From Deltaproteobacteria bacterium (GTDB taxonomy: Bacteria; Myxococcota_A; UBA9160; PR03), in contig JAPSFT010000016.1 of assembly GCA_035063765.1 (NCBI GenBank), positions 1 through 64,000 on the forward strand: a DNA stretch of 64,000 nucleotides. Reading direction: 5' to 3'. The translations under genes were made by a program, and so were the position numbers. This document shows, piece after piece, positions 8,231-40,179 of the stretch. Numbering within the stretch: the first letter of the stretch is position 1; each line of letters begins with the position of its first letter. Below the pieces are notes generated by a model. The model ran no database searches. It saw only the letters and a program-made list of their open reading frames with translations, and had not been told where the DNA came from.

Positions 8231-10183
8231 CTAGTTCGGGCGCTCGCCACCCTTCTCTTCGGTGTACTCGGCGTCGATCACGTCGCCGTCTCCCGAGCCG
8301 CCGCCGCCGCCGGCCGGAGCGGACGCGGGACCCGCGGCGCCGGCGCCATCGCCCGCGGTCTGGGCACGGTAGAGCAGCTCCGCGACGCCGTGCATCTCCT
8401 TCTCGACGCGCTGCCGGGCCGCGTCCATGCGGGCGGCGTCGTTGCTCTCGAGGTCCTTGCGCGCCTCCGCGAGCACACCCTCCGCGCGCACGCGCTCCGC
8501 TTCCGGCAGCTTGTCGCGGTTCTCGGCAAGGGTCTTGTCCGCCTGGTAGAGCAGCGAGTCGAGCTGGTTGTGCTTCTCGACCTGCTCGCGGCGCGCGTGA
8601 TCCTCGCTCGCGTGCGCCTCGGCGTCCTTGACCATGCGGTCGATCTCGTCCTTCTGGAGGCCGCCCGACCCCTCGATGCGGATCGACTGCTCCTTGCCGC
8701 TCGCCTTGTCCTTGGCGCCGACCGCGAGGATACCGTTGGCGTCGATGTCGAAGGTGACCTCGATCTGCGGCATGCCGCGCGGCGCCGGCGGGATCCCGTC
8801 GAGGATGAAGCGCCCGAGCTCGCGGTTGTAGGCCGCCATCTCGCGCTCGCCCTGGAGCACCCGGATCTCGACCTGCGGCTGGTTGTCGGCGGCCGTCGAG
8901 AAGGTCTGGCTGCGCTTGGTCGGGATCGTGGTGTTCTTCTCGATCAGCTTGGTCATGACGCCGCCCAGCGTCTCGATGCCGAGCGAGAGCGGGGTCACGT
9001 CGAGGAGCAGCACGTCGCGCACCTCGCCGGCCAGCACGCCGCCCTGGATGGCGGCGCCGACGGCGACCACCTCGTCGGGGTTCACGCCCTTGTGCGGCTC
9101 CTTGCCGAAGAACTCCTTCACCTTCTGCTGCACGAGCGGCATGCGGGTCGAGCCGCCCACCAGCACCACCTCGTCGATCTCGGACGCCTTCAGGCCGGCG
9201 TCCTGGAGCGCGATGCGGCACGGCTCGAGCGAGCGCTCGACCAGGTCGCCGACCAGCTGCTCGAGCTTCGCCCGGGTCAGCTTCAGGTTCAGGTGCTTCG
9301 GGCCGTTCTGGTCCGCGGTGATGAAAGGCAGGTTCACGTCGGTCTGCTGCGCGGTCGAGAGCTCGATCTTCGCCTTCTCGGCCGCCTCGCGCAGGCGCTG
9401 CATCGCCATCGGGTCCTTCGAGAGGTCGATGCCCTGGTCCTTCTTGAACTCGCCGCTCAGGTACTCGATCACCCGCTGGTCCAGGTTGTCGCCACCCAGA
9501 TGGGTGTCGCCATTGGTGGACTTCACCTCGACCACGTTCTCGCCCACCTCGAGGATCGAGATGTCGAAGGTCCCGCCACCGAAGTCGTAGACGGCGATCT
9601 TCTCGTCCTTCTGCTTGTCGAGGCCGTAGGCGAGCGCCGCGGCGGTCGGCTCGTTGATGATCCGGCGCACCCGCAGGCCGGCGATCTCGCCGGCGTCCTT
9701 CGTGGCCTGGCGCTGGGCGTCGTTGAAGTAGGCCGGCACCGTGATGACGGCGTCCGTCACCGTCTGCCCCAGGTAGGCCTCCGCCGAGGTCTTCAGCTTC
9801 TGGAGGATCCGCGCGGAGATCTCCTGGGGCGAGTACGCCTTGCCGTCGATCCGGATCGCGGCGCGGCCGTCGGGACCCTCGGCGACCTCGTAGGGCACGA
9901 GGCGGATCTCCTCCGGTACCTCCGCCTTGCGGCGGCCCATGAAGCGCTTGATCGAGTAGATCGTCCGGGTCGGGTTGGTCACCGCCTGGCGCTTGGCGGC
10001 GGCGCCAACCAGCCGCTCGTCGTCGCCGAACGCCACCACGGAGGGAGTCGTGCGGCCCCCTTCTTCGTTCGGGATCACGACCGGGCTGCCGGCTTCCATC
10101 ACGGCGACGACGGAGTTCGTCGTGCCGAGATCGATGCCGATGACCTTGCCGGAGCCGCCGGCGGAAGACCCAGGGGACGCCAT
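8231..10183 (-). CDS. dnaK: Molecular chaperone DnaK (Hsp70)
   Basis: The 650-residue product is a full-length Hsp70. The ATPase domain opens with [13 protein letters not shown] and contains [17 protein letters not shown] and [13 protein letters not shown]; the substrate-binding domain includes [15 protein letters not shown]; the C-terminus ends in an acidic EYTEEKGG tail. It refolds client proteins in ATP-driven cycles with DnaJ and GrpE, neither of which is in this window. The ATG at 10183 follows a GGAGGT ribosome-binding site; the longer frame upstream is noise. A short Gly/Ser N-terminal extension (residues 2-10) precedes the ATPase domain. It heads the dnaK-hsp20-lon transcript and is divergent from the T2SS operon. 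Confidence 0.97.
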
Positions 10184-10235
10184 TACGCACACCTCCAACG
10201 GCCTCGTCGCGAGGGACGGGGGAAAAGCGGCTGCG

Positions 10236-10264
10236 AACCTTGGGCCGGCGCTCGCCCCTGTCAA
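10236..10264 (-). promoter_or_regulatory. Candidate sigma-70-type promoter for dnaK
   Basis: On the minus strand a perfect TTGACA (10264-10259) is followed after 17 bases by AAGGTT (10241-10236), about 50 bases ahead of the dnaK ATG. The -35 match stands out in such GC-rich DNA, but the -10 matches the consensus poorly. No CIRCE element (TTAGCACTC-N9-GAGTGCTAA) is visible, so HrcA control is not indicated. Confidence 0.4.
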
Positions 10265-10343
10265 ACGGGATGCGCGCGGAGGCCATCGCCGATCCGCCCC
10301 TCCCCGCTGGGACAAGGGATCCGGGCGGGGGTCCGCGTCGCAG

Positions 10344-10401
10344 CCGCGGTGGTCTCATCAAGCCCGCGATTTCGCGGGCATTCCGTGAGGAACCACCGCG
10401 G
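10344..10401. repeat. Nested inverted repeats between dnaK and gspC
   Basis: An outer 10-base inverted repeat (CCGCGGTGGT at 10344-10353, ACCACCGCGG at 10392-10401) encloses an inner 8-base inverted repeat (GCCCGCGA at 10362-10369, TCGCGGGC at 10372-10379) with a 2-base loop. The set lies in the 283-base divergent region and its right arm sits just upstream of a TATACT box for gspC. It could be an operator or a transcript-insulating hairpin. No known regulator-binding consensus is recognised. The rest of 10184-10466 shows only the candidate dnaK and gspC promoters. Confidence 0.55.
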
Positions 10402-10412
10402 GGGAAGCGGGT

Positions 10413-10418
10413 TATACT
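10413..10418 (+). promoter_or_regulatory. Candidate -10 box for the gsp operon
   Basis: TATACT lies 48 bases ahead of the gspC ATG and matches the TATAAT consensus at five of six positions, unusual in this GC-rich region. No convincing -35 element is seen; the place where it would fall overlaps the right arm of the inverted repeat ending at 10401, which could allow repression or activator dependence. Confidence 0.33.
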
Positions 10419-10466
10419 GCGCGGGCTTCCGGGGGGTCCGATCGGGCCGATGAGCCGGTTTTCGCC

Positions 10467-11366
10467 ATGAACCGAGTCGTCGTCTGGGCGCTGAACGGGG
10501 CGCTCTTCGTCCTGTGCTGCCTCCTCACGGCCAGCCTCGTGAACGGCTGGGTGGGCGAGTGGCTCTCCGCGACCCCGGCCGGTCCGCCGCCCGCGCTGGC
10601 GGCACCGGCGGCGGCGCGCCGCGATTGGAGCGACCGCAAGACCATTCTCGACCGCAACCTCTTCCAGGTCTCCACCCTGCTGCCGGACGAGCCCGTCGCG
10701 GCCGAGCCGATCGGCGAGGACGAGGAGCTCGCCGCCACCCGGCTCCCCCTGAAGCTGCTCGGCACGGTGGCCTCGAACGACCCGAAGGCTGCGTGGGCGG
10801 CGGTCGAGGAGACCACCAAGCGCGAGCGGCTGGTGGTCCGCCCCCAGGATCGGCTGCTCGACAAGGCCACCGTCGTGCGGATCGAGCGCCGGCGGATCGT
10901 GCTCGAGAACGAGGGCAGGCGCGAGGAGCTGGCCCTCGACGAGGAGTCGGCCGGGGCCGGACCCCTGGTCCGGGCGCGCGCAGCGGCCCGGGAGGTTCCC
11001 GCGGTCGCCGACCTGCGCGACCGGATCCAGCAGACCGGCGACAGCAGCTTCCAGGTGCAGCGCGGCCAGGTCGAGGAAGCCATGCGCAACCCGGCCGAGC
11101 TGTTCTCGCAGGCCCGCATCCTGCCCAAGTACGAGAACGGGCAGATGACGGGCGTCCAGCTCAACTCGATCCAGCCCGGAAGCCTCTTCGAGGAGATCGG
11201 GATCCGCGACGGCGACGTGATCACGGAGGTGAACGGGATCGTCGTCTCGAGCCCGCAGGACAGCGCCGCCTTGCTGCGCGAGCTGACCGAGTCCAACGTC
11301 TTCGAGGTCAGCGTGCAGGGCGCCGACGGGCAGCCGCGCACGCTCAGCTACACGGTGCAGCCGTGA
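10467..11366 (+). CDS. gspC: Type II secretion system inner-membrane protein GspC
   Basis: The 299-residue protein has the GspC layout. One N-terminal transmembrane helix (about residues 5-27) is followed by a Pro/Ala linker, a homology-region domain (RKTILDRNLFQ through KLLGTVAS and LVVRPQD), and a C-terminal PDZ-like domain (GVQLNSIQPGSLFEEIGIRDGDVITEVNG). GspC links the inner-membrane platform to the secretin and helps choose substrates. It is the first gene of the T2SS operon, divergent from dnaK, with a TATACT box upstream. The PDZ form, rather than the coiled-coil C-terminus found in some GspC proteins, is clear. Confidence 0.92.
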   Translation: MNRVVVWALNGALFVLCCLLTASLVNGWVGEWLSATPAGPPPALAAPAAARRDWSDRKTILDRNLFQVSTLLPDEPVAAEPIGEDEELAATRLPLKLLGTVASNDPKAAWAAVEETTKRERLVVRPQDRLLDKATVVRIERRRIVLENEGRREELALDEESAGAGPLVRARAAAREVPAVADLRDRIQQTGDSSFQVQRGQVEEAMRNPAELFSQARILPKYENGQMTGVQLNSIQPGSLFEEIGIRDGDVITEVNGIVVSSPQDSAALLRELTESNVFEVSVQGADGQPRTLSYTVQP

Positions 11367-24170: not shown

Positions 24171-25178
24171 GTGAGCGCCGAATCGCTCCAGAAGATCCTC
24201 CGGACCCTCGCCGACCCGACGCGGGTGCGGATCCTCTCGCTGCTCGAGCGCGAGGAGCTGGCCGTGCAGGAGCTGATGGAGGTGCTCGGGATGGCGCAGA
24301 GCCGGGTCTCGCGCCACCTCGGGATCCTGCGCGAGGCAGGGCTCCTGCGCGACCGCCGCGAGGGCACCTACGTCTTCTACCGCTTCGCGACGCCCGGCGA
24401 CGGCGCCTGGCGCGACGCCTGGGCCCTCGCGCGCCGGGAGCTCTCGGGCGACCCGGCCGCGGAGCGCGACGCGGCGGCGCTCGCGCGCGTGCTCGAGGCG
24501 CGCGCGAGCCGCGCGCGCTCCTTCTTCGACGCGGTGGGGCCGGAGTGGGACGCGCTGCGCAAGGTCTTCCACGACGACGTGCTGCGCGCCCGTGCGCTCG
24601 CCCACCTCGCGCCGCCCGACTGGACCGTCGTGGACGTCGGCACCGGGACCGGGATCCTCGCGATCGAGCTCGCGCGGCTCGGGCTCGACGTGATCGCCGT
24701 AGACCACTCCCGGCGCATGCTCGACGCGGCGCGCGCGAAGCTTGCCGAGGAAGGCTTCACGCTCACGGGCGACGGCATCGCGGTGGGCGCGGAGGGAAGC
24801 GGCGCGGGGCGGGTCTCGCTCCGCGCCGGCGAGGCAGGCGCGCTGCCCCTCGGCGACGGCGAGGTGGACGCCGCCCTCGCCCACATGGTGCTCCACTACC
24901 TGCCGGCGCCAGCCGAGGCGCTGCGCGAGATGGCGCGGGTGGTGCGACCCGGCGGCGCGCTCGTGGTGGTCGACTTCGTCCGCCACGAGGCCGAGTGGAT
25001 GCGCGAGGAGCTCGGCGTCCAGTGGCTCGGCTTCCCGCCCACCGAGGTGGCCGGCTGGCTGCACGAGATCGGCCTCGAGCGCATCCGGCTCGAAACCATC
25101 GCCGCCGGCTCCCCCACCCGCGAGCTCCCCGCGGCCTTCATCGCGGCAGCAAGGCGGCCGAAGGCCGCCGCGCAGTGA
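24171..25178 (+). CDS. ArsR-family regulator fused to a SAM-dependent methyltransferase
   Basis: The 335-residue protein combines an N-terminal winged helix of the ArsR/SmtB type (residues about 1-85, with LADPTRVRILSLLEREEL and SRVSRHLGILREAGLL) and a C-terminal class I methyltransferase (motif I VVDVGTGTGILAIELA near residue 158, VVRPGGALVVVDF later). This fusion is a known architecture, though its ligand is unproven. No ArsR metal-binding cysteine pair is visible. It follows gspN by 15 bases. Its last codons and TGA stop lie inside the first copy of the repeat at 25153-25366, so the C-terminal RRPKAAAQ is repeat-encoded and probably not ancestral. Confidence 0.88.
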   Translation: MSAESLQKILRTLADPTRVRILSLLEREELAVQELMEVLGMAQSRVSRHLGILREAGLLRDRREGTYVFYRFATPGDGAWRDAWALARRELSGDPAAERDAAALARVLEARASRARSFFDAVGPEWDALRKVFHDDVLRARALAHLAPPDWTVVDVGTGTGILAIELARLGLDVIAVDHSRRMLDAARAKLAEEGFTLTGDGIAVGAEGSGAGRVSLRAGEAGALPLGDGEVDAALAHMVLHYLPAPAEALREMARVVRPGGALVVVDFVRHEAEWMREELGVQWLGFPPTEVAGWLHEIGLERIRLETIAAGSPTRELPAAFIAAARRPKAAAQ

Positions 25179-32015: not shown

Positions 32016-33398
<1,383 letters not shown>

Positions 33399-33473: not shown

Positions 33474-35024
33474 TCAGCGGCGGCGGAGGGGACGAAGGGG
33501 CCCGAGCTGCGGCGGGGGAACCTCCGCGGGCGTAGCGGCGAGCGCCGGGAAGAGCAGGCGCACGGTGGTCCCGCGGCCGGGCGCGCTCTCCACGACGAGG
33601 CCGCCGCCCTGGGCGCCGACCAGGCCCGCCACCTCGGCGAGCCCGAGGCCGCGCTCGGGCGACTTGGTGCTGAAGAAGGGGTCGAAGACCTGCGAGCGGG
33701 TGGCGGCGTCCATGCCGCAGCCGTCGTCACTCACCTCGAGCGCGACGCCGGGGCCCGCCCGCAGCGCGCCGGGCGGCTGCAGCGAGGCGAGCTGCGCCTC
33801 GTCGACGTCGAGCACGCGGGTGCGGACCTTCACGGTGCCGCCGCGCGGCGCGAGCGCGTCGGAGGCGTTGTGCACGAGCAGCGCGACGACGCGGCGCAGT
33901 TGGATCGCGTTCACGCGGGCGGGCGGCAGCCCCATCGGCAGGTCGAGGCTCAGCGAGACCCTGGGCTCGAGCCCCGCTTCGAGCCCCTGCGACAGCCCCA
34001 TGACGAGCGCCGAGAGATTCGTGCTCGCCCCGACCGCGGGCCGGCGCCCGACGTAGCCGAGGAGCTGCTCGGTGAGGGCCGCCATCTGCAGACCCACGCG
34101 GCGCACCGGACCCGGCTCGAGCCGTTCCGTCCCGAGGCTCCGGCGCCGGGCCTCGTGGGGCGCCGGGCGCGCCTTCGGATCCGGCCGGCGCGCGCGGCGG
34201 GGGGTGCGGGCCAGGCTCTCGTCGACCTGGTCGAGCAGCTCGGTGGAGAGCCGGCTCAGGCGGTCGGCGACGCCCGCGGCGAGCCGCACCATGCCCTCGC
34301 GCCGGCGTGCCTCCTGCACCTGCTCCTCGAGGCGCCAGCGCTCCGCCTCGGCGCGCCGGCGCTCGCTCACGTCGCGCCCGACGAGCTGGATCGCCGGCTC
34401 GCCCTGGAACGACACCGCGGCGCCCGCGATCTCCACGTCGAGCACGCTGCCGTCGGGGCGCAGGATCTTCTCCTCGAGCAGGAGGGCCGGCCCCCCCGTC
34501 TCGAGCATCTTGCGCACGCGCTCGGCCACCACGGCGTGATAGTCGGGGTGCACGAAGTCGATCATCCGGCGGCCGAGGAGCTCCTCGGACGAGCTGGCGC
34601 CGAGCATCGCGACGGCGGCAGGATTCACGAAGCGGATGCACCCGCCCGCGTGCACCACGATCGGCTCGGGGCACGCCTCGACGAGCCGGCGGTAGCGCTC
34701 CTCGCTCTCGGCGAGCGCGGCGGCGGGCTCGGGGGCGGGCCGCAGCGCGACGCACCAGGCGGGGGCGCCCGCGCCCGCCGCGGGCGCGGCCTCGAGGCTG
34801 AGCCCGTCGATCACGAGCCGGAACGGGGCGCCCGCGGCGAGCGAGGCAGCGAAGCGCTCGCGGGCCGGGGCGTCGAGCCCGGGGAGCGCGGACGCGAGCG
34901 GGCGCGCGAGGAGCGCAGCGGGCGCGCGGCCGGACAACGCCTCGACGGCGCCGCTGCACCAGACCACGACGCCCTGCGCGTCGCAGCCGAGGAGCGCGAA
35001 GGAGCCCTCGGGCGGGCTGGGCAT
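33474..35024 (-). CDS. PAS-domain sensor histidine-kinase-like protein lacking the phosphoacceptor His
   Basis: The 516-residue protein has no transmembrane segment. Residues about 1-100 look like a degenerate PAS fold, residues about 105-225 are a PAS domain (EERYRRLVEACPEPIVVHAGG, GRDVSERRRAEAE), then comes a dimerisation-like helix (about 240-260) and a GHKL ATPase with N box LVHNASDAL, G1 DDGCGMD, F box FDPFFSTKS and G2 RGLGLAEVAGLV. In the expected HisKA motif GxVAHDxNN the histidine is replaced (GVADRLSRL). The ATG at 35024 has GGAGGT 6 bases upstream. It may bind ATP without autophosphorylating on the usual His. No response regulator is nearby. Confidence 0.85.
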   Translation of the reverse strand: MPSPPEGSFALLGCDAQGVVVWCSGAVEALSGRAPAALLARPLASALPGLDAPARERFAASLAAGAPFRLVIDGLSLEAAPAAGAGAPAWCVALRPAPEPAAALAESEERYRRLVEACPEPIVVHAGGCIRFVNPAAVAMLGASSSEELLGRRMIDFVHPDYHAVVAERVRKMLETGGPALLLEEKILRPDGSVLDVEIAGAAVSFQGEPAIQLVGRDVSERRRAEAERWRLEEQVQEARRREGMVRLAAGVADRLSRLSTELLDQVDESLARTPRRARRPDPKARPAPHEARRRSLGTERLEPGPVRRVGLQMAALTEQLLGYVGRRPAVGASTNLSALVMGLSQGLEAGLEPRVSLSLDLPMGLPPARVNAIQLRRVVALLVHNASDALAPRGGTVKVRTRVLDVDEAQLASLQPPGALRAGPGVALEVSDDGCGMDAATRSQVFDPFFSTKSPERGLGLAEVAGLVGAQGGGLVVESAPGRGTTVRLLFPALAATPAEVPPPQLGPLRPLRRR

Positions 35025-35173
35025 GAGGCGACCTCCACGGACGCGAGGGGAACGACGCGGGATCGCGATCACGGCGCGGGCGGGAGCTGCGAGCGGGCGA
35101 GCGGCAGGAGGACCCGAGGGTATCACCGCCGCGAAGCCGTCCGCTATCGTGCAGCCGTCCACACGAGGAACGC

Positions 35174-36793
<1,620 letters not shown>

Positions 36794-37336: not shown

Positions 37337-37954
37337 ATGGAGACACCCCGCACCACCCGCCCGCGGAACGGGCCGCTGATCCTCGGCAGCGGCTCGCCGC
37401 GCCGGCGCGAGCTCCTGGGCCGCGCCGGGATCCGCTTCGAGGTGCAGCCCGCGGACATCGACGAGCGCGCGCGCCCGGGCGAGGCCCCGCGCGCGCTCGC
37501 GTCGCGGCTCGCGCGGGAGAAGGCGTCAGCCGTCGCGCGGCGGGTGGGTCCGGCGCCGGCGCGCCTCGTGCTCGGCGCCGACACGATCGTGGTCGTGGAC
37601 GGCGCGATGCTCGGCAAGCCCGAGGACCCCGGCGACGCGGAGCGCCTCCTCGCCCGGCTGGTCGGGCGCGCGCACCAGGTGCTGACCGCCGTCGCGCTCG
37701 TCGAGAGCGCGGCGCTCACCGCCTGGAGCGCGCTCGTCGAGAGCCGCGTCTGGATGCGACCGGCCGGCGCCGCCGAGATCCGGCGTTACGTCGCGACCGG
37801 TGAGCCGCTCGACAAGGCCGGCGCCTACGCCGTGCAGGGCGAGGGCCGCCGCTTCATCGAGCGCATCGAGGGCAGCGAGACCAACGTGATCGGGCTGCCG
37901 ATCGAGGAGACGCTCGCGCTGCTGCGCGAGGCCGGACACGATGGCCTCGCCTGA
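37337..37954 (+). CDS. maf: Maf-family nucleotide pyrophosphatase
   Basis: The 205-residue protein is a Maf nucleoside triphosphate pyrophosphatase, which hydrolyses non-canonical or excess dTTP/UTP-type nucleotides. Motifs are LGSGSPRRRELL at the N-terminus, GADTIVVVDGAMLGKP, and DKAGAYAVQG near the end. It opens a long plus-strand operon running to the M48 gene and overlaps yggS by 14 bases. The first 13 residues are a basic extension not seen in most Maf proteins. Confidence 0.92.
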   Translation: METPRTTRPRNGPLILGSGSPRRRELLGRAGIRFEVQPADIDERARPGEAPRALASRLAREKASAVARRVGPAPARLVLGADTIVVVDGAMLGKPEDPGDAERLLARLVGRAHQVLTAVALVESAALTAWSALVESRVWMRPAGAAEIRRYVATGEPLDKAGAYAVQGEGRRFIERIEGSETNVIGLPIEETLALLREAGHDGLA

Positions 37955-38684
37955 GCCCGAGCGCGACGAAGCGCCGGCGCTCGCCGCGCGGCTCGCCGCC
38001 CTGCGCGCGCGCATCGCCGCCGCCGCGGGCCGCGCCGGGCGCGACCCCGCCGCGGTGCGGGTGATCGGCGCGAGCAAGCGGCAGCCGGCCGCCCGGGTCG
38101 CGGCGGCGGCCCGGGCGGGGCTTCGCGACCTGGGCGAGAACTACGTTCAGGAAGCCTCGGCCAAGATCGCGAAGGTGCGGGAGATTCTCGGCGATGAAAC
38201 CGCGGGCGCCCTGCGCTGGCACGGGATCGGCCACCTCCAGCGCAACAAGGCCCGGGAGGCGCTCGCCGCCTTCTCCTGCCTCCACACGCTCGACAGCCCC
38301 CGGCTGGCCGCCGAGCTCGAGCGCCAGGCCGCGGCGGCCGGGCGCGTGCTGCCCGTGCTCGTGCAGGTCAACGTCTCGCGCGAGCCGCAGAAGAGCGGCG
38401 CCCTGGAGGCGGAGCTCCCCGCCCTGCTCGCCGGGCTGGCGGCGCACCCGCACCTGCGCGTCACGGGCCTCATGGCGATGCCCGCTCCCACCGACGATCC
38501 CGAGGCCGCCCGCCCCGCCTTCGCCCGCCTGCGCGCGCTGCGCGACGAGCTGCGCGACGCTCCGGGTGGCGCGCAGCTCGTGGAGCTGTCGATGGGCATG
38601 TCGCACGACTTCGAGGTCGCCGTCGAGGAGGGGGCGACCTGGGTGCGGATCGGGACGGAGCTGTTCGGCCCGCGGCCGGCGTGA
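37941..38684 (+). CDS. yggS: YggS-family PLP homeostasis protein
   Basis: The 247-residue protein is a PLP-binding homeostasis protein of the YggS/PROSC family, an alanine-racemase-like single barrel that buffers pyridoxal phosphate and affects amino acid balance. The PLP lysine is in VIGASKRQPA; later motifs are LGENYVQEA, WHGIGHLQRNK, LVQVNVSREPQKSG and LSMGMSHDFEVAVEEGAT. It overlaps maf and proC. The yggS-proC-divIVA order is widely conserved in bacteria. Confidence 0.94.
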   Translation: MASPEPERDEAPALAARLAALRARIAAAAGRAGRDPAAVRVIGASKRQPAARVAAAARAGLRDLGENYVQEASAKIAKVREILGDETAGALRWHGIGHLQRNKAREALAAFSCLHTLDSPRLAAELERQAAAAGRVLPVLVQVNVSREPQKSGALEAELPALLAGLAAHPHLRVTGLMAMPAPTDDPEAARPAFARLRALRDELRDAPGGAQLVELSMGMSHDFEVAVEEGATWVRIGTELFGPRPA

Positions 38685-38698
38685 CGGGAGGACGGGTG

Positions 38699-39526
38699 AT
38701 GGGTGCGCTCGACGGACTGCGGATCGGCGCGATCGGCGCCGGCGCGATGGGCGAGGCGCTGCTCGGCGGCCTCGCGGCCGCCGGGGTGCCGGCCGCGAGG
38801 CTGCGCGCGACCGACCCCGACGCCGCCCGCCGCGACGCGCTCGCGCGCGGCCTCGGCATCACGACCGGTACCGACAACGGCGCCCTCGTGCGCGAGAGCG
38901 ACGTCGTGCTGCTCGCCGTGAAGCCGGGCCTCGTCCCGCGCGTGCTCGGCGCGCTGCGCAAGGAGCCGGGCGCGGACCTCGCGCGGCCGCTCTGGGTCTC
39001 GATCGCCGCCGGCGTCTCGCTCGCGAAGCTCGCGGCCGAGCTTCCGGCCGGCACGCGCATCGTGCGCGCGATGCCCAACACGCCCGCGCTCGTGCGCGCG
39101 GGCGCCACCGCGTTCGCCGCCAACGCCGCCGCGACCTCCGCCGACCGCGCCGTCGCGCAGGCGCTCTTCGAGAGCGTCGGCGTCGTCTGGGAGGCACCCG
39201 ACGAGGGCCTGCTCGACGCGGTGACCGGGCTCTCGGGGAGCGGCCCGGCCTACGTCTTCGTCTTCCTCGAGGCACTCGCCGACGCCGGCGTGCGCGCCGG
39301 CCTCCCGCGCGAGGCCGCGCACCGGCTGGCCTGCCAGACCGTGCTCGGCGCGGCGCGGCTCGCGCTCGAGAGCGGCCTGCATCCCGGGCAACTGAAGGAC
39401 CGGGTCACCTCTCCCGGCGGCACCACGATCGCGGGCCTCGCCCGGCTCGAGGCCGGCGGCCTGCGCGCCGCGGTCCACGACGCCGTGGAGGCCGCCACCC
39501 GCCGCTCCCGTGAGCTCGGCGGCTGA
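38699..39526 (+). CDS. proC: Pyrroline-5-carboxylate reductase
   Basis: The 275-residue enzyme reduces 1-pyrroline-5-carboxylate to L-proline with NAD(P)H. The Rossmann motif GAIGAGAMGEALLGGL is at the N-terminus, MPNTPALV in the middle, LSGSGPAYVF and the signature VTSPGGTTIAGLARLE near the C-terminus. The ATG at 38699 has GGAGG 7 bases upstream and is preferred over the GTG at 38681, which overlaps the yggS stop and would add six residues. It is flanked by yggS and divIVA. Confidence 0.95.
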   Translation: MGALDGLRIGAIGAGAMGEALLGGLAAAGVPAARLRATDPDAARRDALARGLGITTGTDNGALVRESDVVLLAVKPGLVPRVLGALRKEPGADLARPLWVSIAAGVSLAKLAAELPAGTRIVRAMPNTPALVRAGATAFAANAAATSADRAVAQALFESVGVVWEAPDEGLLDAVTGLSGSGPAYVFVFLEALADAGVRAGLPREAAHRLACQTVLGAARLALESGLHPGQLKDRVTSPGGTTIAGLARLEAGGLRAAVHDAVEAATRRSRELGG

Positions 39527-39606
39527 CGGGTCCCCCCCGCGTGCGGCTAAAGATCGCGCGCGGTTGGGCCGATCGCTTGCCGCAGGCCGAGAGGCTGGAG
39601 GGACCC

Positions 39607-40179
39607 GTGCGCCTGACCCCGCTCGACATCCAGAACCATCACTTCGCCCAGCGCCTGCGCGGCCTCGACCCCGAGGAGGTACAGGCCTTCCACCGGCTGG
39701 TGGCGGAGGACTTCGAGGACCTGATCCGCGAGGGCGAGCGGCTGCGCGAGCGGATCCGCGAGCTCGAGGCGCGCGTCGAGGAGATGGGAAGCCGCGAGGA
39801 GCTCCTGCGCCAGACGCTGCTCACCGCCCAGTCGGTGAGCGAGGACCTGCGCCGCACCGCCGCGAAGGAGGCCGAGGTGGTGCTCGCCGAGGCCGAGGTG
39901 CGGGCCGAGAAGCTGCTCGACGCCGCCCACCGGCGCGTCGCCAAGCTGGCCGAGGACATCCGCGAGATGCGCACGCTGCGCACCCGCCTCGGTGCCTCCG
40001 TGCGCGCCGCGATCGAGACCCACGTGGCGATCCTCGACGGCCTCGTCGAGGAGCTGCCCGACGACCCGATCCTCGACGGCAAGGTCGCGTTCCTGGCCCA
40101 GGCCACGAAGGCGCCGGGGCGCCGCAGCGGAGGCCCGGGCGGCGCGGCGGGGCCGGCCTCGGGGGCCCAGGAGGCTTGA
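39607..40179 (+). CDS. DivIVA-domain coiled-coil protein
   Basis: The 190-residue protein has a DivIVA N-terminus (LTPLDIQNHHFAQRLRGLDPEEVQAFHRLVAEDFEDL) followed by a long coiled coil (about residues 40-130) and a disordered Gly/Ala-rich tail. DivIVA proteins sense membrane curvature and recruit division or growth factors; this one could also be a Gram-negative relative with another role. The GTG at 39607 has GGAGG 5 bases upstream, so the 22 extra residues of the open frame are excluded. It overlaps the next gene by 4 bases. Confidence 0.88.
   Translation: MRLTPLDIQNHHFAQRLRGLDPEEVQAFHRLVAEDFEDLIREGERLRERIRELEARVEEMGSREELLRQTLLTAQSVSEDLRRTAAKEAEVVLAEAEVRAEKLLDAAHRRVAKLAEDIREMRTLRTRLGASVRAAIETHVAILDGLVEELPDDPILDGKVAFLAQATKAPGRRSGGPGGAAGPASGAQEA

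Follow-up and report, generated by a model that had tools for sequence, protein, structure and literature searches.

A PAS sensor gene between two fumarase genes, probable member of a small clade of pseudo-histidine kinases

The window analysed here is a stretch of 64,000 nucleotides from a deltaproteobacterial genome, and the gene under study, located on its minus strand, encodes a PAS/ATPase sensor (Table 1). The gene displays Pfam matches to PAS (E 1.4e-18) and HATPase_c (E 4.9e-16) and a GC content of 0.97 at third codon positions. The original prediction of such a sensor placed between two fumarases, with no response regulator nearby, stands in these parts, as Pfam assigns the flanking genes to a FumC-type and a class I fumarase and none of the 66 receiver-domain matches of the genome falls on the 107-kb contig (C16) bearing the sensor. 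The immediate neighbours of the sensor include no transcription factor. Elsewhere in the window, genes for Maf, an alanine racemase of the N-terminal type, pyrroline-5-carboxylate reductase and DivIVA stand in a row (37337-40176), and a single ORF joins an ArsR-type helix-turn-helix to a methyltransferase domain (24171-25175).

Table 1. Features of the sensor locus, in positions of the window.
Feature	Position	Strand	Basis
Sensor gene, predicted pseudo-histidine kinase, 516 aa	33474..35024	-	ORF listing; ATG start, GGAGG upstream
N-terminal PAS-like domain, residues 10-96, fast evolving	34737..34997	-	Strand/helix order, AF2 model
PAS domain, residues 109-222, best conserved part	34359..34700	-	Pfam and orthologue identity
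Long coil and first DHp helix, residues 220-273	34206..34367	-	AF2 model; HK853 fold match over 224-495
Codon 254, GAC (Asp); His in 81/82 relatives and 3/3 other orthologues	34263..34265	-	Alignment
Arg/Pro-rich DHp-loop insertion of 21 residues, residues 273-293	34146..34208	-	Alignment; low model confidence
CA (HATPase_c) domain, residues 331-495	33540..34034	-	Pfam; CckA CA fold match
N-box, first Asn replaced by Leu382, second Asn kept (Asn386)	33867..33881	-	Alignment
G2 box, Gly replaced by Glu at 457, other glycines kept	33639..33656	-	Alignment
Class II fumarase (FumC type), 75 bp downstream, same strand as sensor	32016..33398	-	Pfam
Class I fumarase, divergent from sensor	35174..36793	+	Pfam
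Divergent intergenic region, 149 bp	35025..35173	.	CGTCCGCTATCGT stretch near class I fumarase start, common to the same-genus genome G010

The protein opens with a PAS-like region for which no Pfam match of its own is listed, residues 1-102 being only 29-44% identical to the orthologues described below. At the other end, the profile match together with the retained G1, F and most G2 residues makes the C-terminal part a HATPase_c/GHKL domain. No match to Pfam HisKA is listed for the window protein (E up to 1) or for the other three orthologues (E up to 10, bearing in mind that HMMER filters discard most weak matches), whereas a canonical paralogue (L004), unlike all four, scores 45.9 bits with this model. 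The insertion in the DHp loop belongs to the window protein only and is absent in the other three orthologues.

The AF2 model, built with 49 sequences (mean pLDDT 83.6, pTM 0.55), gives in order a PAS-like N-terminal domain, a PAS domain, a helix (220-273), a weakly modelled loop corresponding to the insertion, a second helix (306-324) and the CA domain. The Foldseek matches listed include FixL-type chimeras, NifL, CckA, DivL and HK853. By VIA-align, the model matches the CA domain of CckA (Z 22.0, rmsd 2.7, 164 residues), DivL (Z 20.3, rmsd 7.2, 202 residues) and HK853 (Z 19.4, rmsd 3.1, 219 residues over 224-495). As the aligned relatives carry kinase motifs, the model is drawn toward a kinase shape, and likeness in modelled fold to kinases is not a sign of activity.

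At the site of the phosphoacceptor His, residues 251-259 read GVADRLSRL, and Asp254 (codon GAC) occupies the place of the His, as originally reported. The accompanying statement that the N, G1, F and G2 boxes are intact does not hold, since Leu382 replaces the first N-box Asn of 81/82 relatives, and Glu457 the initial Gly of the G2 box, found in 80/82. These 82 relatives are not a random sample of kinases, as they were picked by similarity to the window protein. An origin of the odd motif in a compensated frameshift was discarded, the H-box aligning codon for codon with those of the three other orthologues (L012-L014).

Orthologues were sought in 79 genomes of the order with a protein query, in 90 of the class with a profile and in 377 sampled across the phylum. 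Scoring was confined to the top first-look candidates in each genome, up to 19 for the order, 17 for the class and 4 for the phylum, so that a weakly matching orthologue may have escaped notice. In the profile searches, four orthologues stand at 815-868 bits, the next match being at 347 bits. They come from the window genome, from G010 of the same genus (59% identity) and from G076 and G077 of another family (48% each); the other genomes of the family of the window species, G011-G014, yielded no orthologue at this level. In a quick tree of 86 rows, which are those remaining of 111 loci after E-value and length filters, the four form one clade (SH-aLRT 100), the window row being flagged for its odd letter composition.

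The His is present in each of the other three orthologues, within GIAHSL (L012, from G010), GIAHQL (L013, from G076) and GVAHSL (L014, from G077), and its loss therefore does not define the family. Around it, the signature of a kinase is broken everywhere. The position following the His (H+1) is occupied by Arg, Ser, Gln and Ser in the window protein, G010, G076 and G077, respectively, against Asp in 81/82 relatives; in the same order, H+4 is Arg, Lys, Gly and Thr against Asn in 80/82, and the first N-box Asn, found in 81/82, gives way to Leu, Gly, Asp and Asp. By contrast with these losses, all four retain Asn386, Asp433, Gly435, Gly437, Phe450, Lys454, Gly459 and Gly461, and with them the second N-box Asn, the Asp and glycines of G1, the Phe pair of the F-box and the last two glycines of G2. 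An earlier count over 86-89 rows gave the same picture of lost and kept residues.

The 47 alignment columns conserved at 90% or more among the 82 relatives were used as a yardstick for such departures. The window protein departs at 13 of them, G010 at 11, G076 at 12 and G077 at 13, against a median of 1 and a maximum of 8 in the relatives. Nine departures are common to all four orthologues, seven located in DHp helix 1 and two in the front part of the N-box. Judged from the alignment, the residues by which a HisKA-type kinase transfers phosphate are lost in all four orthologues, and the PAS domain and most residues of the nucleotide-binding motifs are retained. Neither the acid after the His nor the pair of N-box Asn expected of a HisKA-type histidine kinase is found in any of the four, the phosphoacceptor His itself being absent from the window protein only; by sequence and predicted fold, the clade shows what marks a pseudo-histidine kinase, a kinase fold in which catalytic residues are lost across the clade.

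Absence of the His is uncommon in the window genome without being unique to the sensor. Indeed, of 51 HATPase_c matches, 42 distinct DHp segments could be aligned (two duplicate rows having been removed by eye), and two of these 42 are devoid of His, namely the window sensor and G000:C2:51546, the latter read by eye as its row is misaligned. This second His-less kinase (L174, G000:C2:51546-51875 and upstream, minus strand) reads MSRELRTPLNS, with Arg for His; its acidic residue is kept, a Leu stands at the first N-box position, and both HisKA and HATPase_c still match. A PAS kinase relative in a Calditrichota record (JAJRYW010000064.1, L015:5001-6431) reads GIAQDFDD, with Gln for His and the acid kept, and its 8 departures at conserved columns are the most among the 82 relatives.

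The consequences of the shared losses can be read from better-studied kinases. In the sections cited of a study of CpxA (PMC3904827), Glu249 at H+1 is described as being in contact with both the His and the CA-domain residue Asn356, Glu249 and Asn356 activating the His, and the N356Y variant is strongly kinase-deficient, Asn360 being a strictly conserved N-box residue. By their spacing, Asn356 and Asn360 would correspond to positions 382 and 386 of the window protein. For phytochromes, replacement of the H+1 Asp by His is stated to inactivate Agp1, and the H+4 residue is tied to phosphatase activity (PMC8292422, passages cited). On these CpxA and phytochrome accounts, absence of both the H+1 acid and the first N-box Asn predicts a lack of kinase activity even for the three orthologues in which the His is present. 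Loss of kinase activity throughout the clade is thus considered highly probable.

The original prediction held that a His conserved in orthologues would point to a sequence error. The His is indeed present in all three other orthologues, but even apart from this residue none of the four has an intact kinase signature. Since these three carry it and GAC is one base away from CAC, a wrong base at codon 254 is possible, and the window protein might then be a working kinase; the conclusion on kinase loss, however, does not depend on codon 254 being correct. A working kinase could also use another acceptor, as had been suggested. This suggestion gained no support, as the residues activating the acceptor in CpxA are lost and as H290, the one further His of the DHp, is part of the poorly modelled insert found in the window protein only; as far as its sequence tells, a Ser, Thr or Asp might play the part. 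With the other catalytic residues lost in all four orthologues, a working kinase of either kind is scarcely credible.

The same paired loss points to another activity. In DrBphP of Deinococcus radiodurans, replacement likewise affects both the H+1 acid and the N-box Asn, His standing at both places, and the protein is described in the section cited as a phosphatase with no kinase activity (PMC8292422). A sensor acting as a phosphatase only would be compatible with the His kept in three orthologues, and the G077 protein has at H+4 a Thr, a residue named in that source for phosphatase activity. However, the phosphatase-type residue is not kept in the other three orthologues (Arg, Lys and Gly), and no receiver lies on the contig of the window. 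DrBphP itself, by the same account, has a phytochrome sensor, a known partner receiver and a Glu at H+4 for phosphatase activity. Such a function is therefore very unlikely for the clade.

The proposal that the protein had become an ATP-binding switch fits, in that nucleotide-contact motifs are kept and catalytic ones lost in the four orthologues, binding itself being predicted. As DivL is reported to bind nucleotide weakly (PMC4211667, section cited), the kept motifs do not amount to proof of binding, and the lack of one G2 glycine in the window protein also weighs against taking it as assured. In a stronger version of the proposal, the proteins would hydrolyze ATP without phosphotransfer and so drive a conformational change. 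GHKL ATPases carry a catalytic Glu at the first N-box position (PMC3904827, section cited). The G076 and G077 proteins do have an Asp aligned with residue 382, but Asp is not Glu, and the Leu of the window protein and the Gly of G010 at this position speak against hydrolysis, which is regarded as unlikely.

The distribution of constraint along the protein is also peculiar. In all six orthologue pairs, which derive from four sequences only, the PAS domain displays the highest identity and the DHp the lowest, a pattern found in none of 338 canonical pairs at 45-70% identity, many of which are probably not orthologues, a circumstance that lowers their PAS identity. In these 338 pairs PAS is never the highest and DHp never the lowest, and the same is true of the 30 pairs sharing no sequence. 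The sole likely orthologous control, a canonical pair within the genus selected by best match, gives identities of 0.60 for PAS, 0.68 for DHp and 0.57 for CA. Between the window and G010, the pN/pS of the whole sensor, obtained from simple counts without codon-bias correction, is 0.57, with values of 0.37 (PAS), 0.55 (DHp) and 0.58 (CA) for the domains. As DHp and CA are about equal by this measure, it is the identities and the lost residues that argue for a relaxed DHp. Over the N-terminal 102 residues, pN/pS rises to 0.83-1.12 (0.83 for the window and G010).

Such values raise the question of whether the gene still has much function in the window species or is drifting toward a pseudogene. 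Three losses at conserved columns, H254D, D372N and G457E, are unique to the window protein, against none in each of the other orthologues, and the 21-residue insert adds to them, as do the pN/pS of the whole sensor, compared with 0.16 and 0.33 for the flanking fumarases (window and G010), and that of its N-terminal part. On the other hand, the reading frame is intact with a ribosome-binding site and its high third-position GC, the PAS domain remains constrained, and the gene order is kept in G010. Decay is thus rather improbable. It has also to be considered that a wholly free His would not be expected to persist in three of four orthologues at 48-59% identity, and the retained residue may still have some role.

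The prediction that the sensor takes part in the choice between fumarases was drawn from its position, and the position is only partly conserved. G010 has the same order of FumC, sensor and class I fumarase. In G076, the sensor is directly flanked by a transglycosylase-domain ORF and an ornithine cyclodeaminase-like ORF. The class I fumarase lies convergent on the far side of the former, and FumC is found on a different contig. Neither fumarase of G077 shares a contig with the sensor. As both fumarases adjoin the sensor in G010, one in G076 and none in G077, the linkage is weak evidence for function, and control of the neighbouring fumarase genes by the sensor is rather doubtful, redox or respiration being a looser common theme of the neighbourhoods. 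On G077:C92 (L097:6944-8812, 8777-11195), a NapC/NirT-type cytochrome ORF comes after the sensor gene, which is divergent to a gene for a 7TM PAS histidine kinase. This kinase has an AHEVNN motif and both N-box Asn, and it is a possible partner of the G077 orthologue. In three genomes of genus g3, G013, G014 and G012 (L143, L144 and L145), an ORF that by eye resembles a DedA-like membrane protein lies between the fumarases at the place where genus g1 has the sensor, together with an extra ORF of ATPase look in G012 (L145).

As kinase chemistry is apparently lost, output probably occurs through contact with a partner instead of phosphate transfer. The favoured reading, with a probability of roughly 0.6, is that the four proteins are pseudo-histidine kinases that signal by contact with a partner, in the manner of NifL or DivL. 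The PAS dimer would sense a cytoplasmic signal and turn the coiled coil, and the DHp-like hairpin, together with a CA domain loaded with ATP or ADP, would then shift its grip on a partner protein, contact outputs of this type having precedents in the action of NifL on NifA and of DivL on DivK. Loss of the catalytic acid and the N-box Asn would have made the His dispensable, and it would later have disappeared from the protein of the window species. A fuller scenario can be put forward tentatively, in which a kinase turned stepwise into a phosphate-free switch, the acid, the N-box Asn and the H+4 residue being lost in the common ancestor and the His last, in one species, leaving PAS-driven contact by a nucleotide-loaded protein to control fumarase or other respiratory genes.

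Pseudo-histidine kinases are usually spotted by their missing His, a check that three of these four members would pass, whereas a scan for the pair formed by the H+1 acid and the N-box Asn would reveal such His-keeping proteins. The four genes also constitute a small natural series on the role of a retained His in a predicted kinase-dead sensor. The literature searched on pseudo- or inactive histidine kinases, N-box residues, NifL and fumarase-linked sensors, mostly papers outside subscription journals, yielded no description of this four-member clade. An HPt-type reading, as for ChpT, was rejected, the degraded part being here the DHp; in the ChpT-type family, it is the CA domain.

Among proteins of known structure, CckA (5idj) is the nearest solved relative of the window protein (profile search, E 6.7e-34) but is named as a working kinase and displays in the alignment GGVAHDFNN and an NLAVNA N-box. 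The best NCBIfam model for the window protein among the matches listed is NF010411 (VirA-like), far below its cut-off. The structure of NifL, 9qq6, is matched by sequence (E 1.4e-12, whole sequence) and ranks sixth by Foldseek, while being absent from the best 50 VIA-align matches. With the NifL model TIGR02938 (cut-off 242.45), the window protein (P0001) scores 29.3 bits, L012 34.2 and L014 42.9, L013 not being among the matches listed. The conserved His of NifL is reportedly called redundant in the title of a study cited in PMC8063818.

NifL of Azotobacter vinelandii resembles the window protein by its tandem PAS domains, its H domain and its nucleotide-binding GHKL domain, and it is described in the sections cited as having no kinase activity and acting by protein contact (PMC8063818, PMC12998174, PMC3466315). 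By the NCBIfam cut-off, however, the window protein is not NifL and no NifA adjoins it; the immediate neighbours in the window, G010, G076 and G077 include no NifA, distant ORFs having been scanned in part. The chloroplast sensor kinase CSK of green algae and plants also has its His replaced and its CA domain modified with nucleotide binding kept (PMC5054060, section cited), but it is a plastid protein, and the comparison is one of likeness, with no claim of orthology. DivL of Caulobacter crescentus combines PAS, DHp and CA with a replaced His and, according to the section cited, has neither kinase nor phosphatase activity and binds a regulator (PMC4211667). The replacement in DivL is Tyr (Ala in one homologue) and runs through its homologues in that account, whereas here it is Asp and concerns one orthologue out of four.
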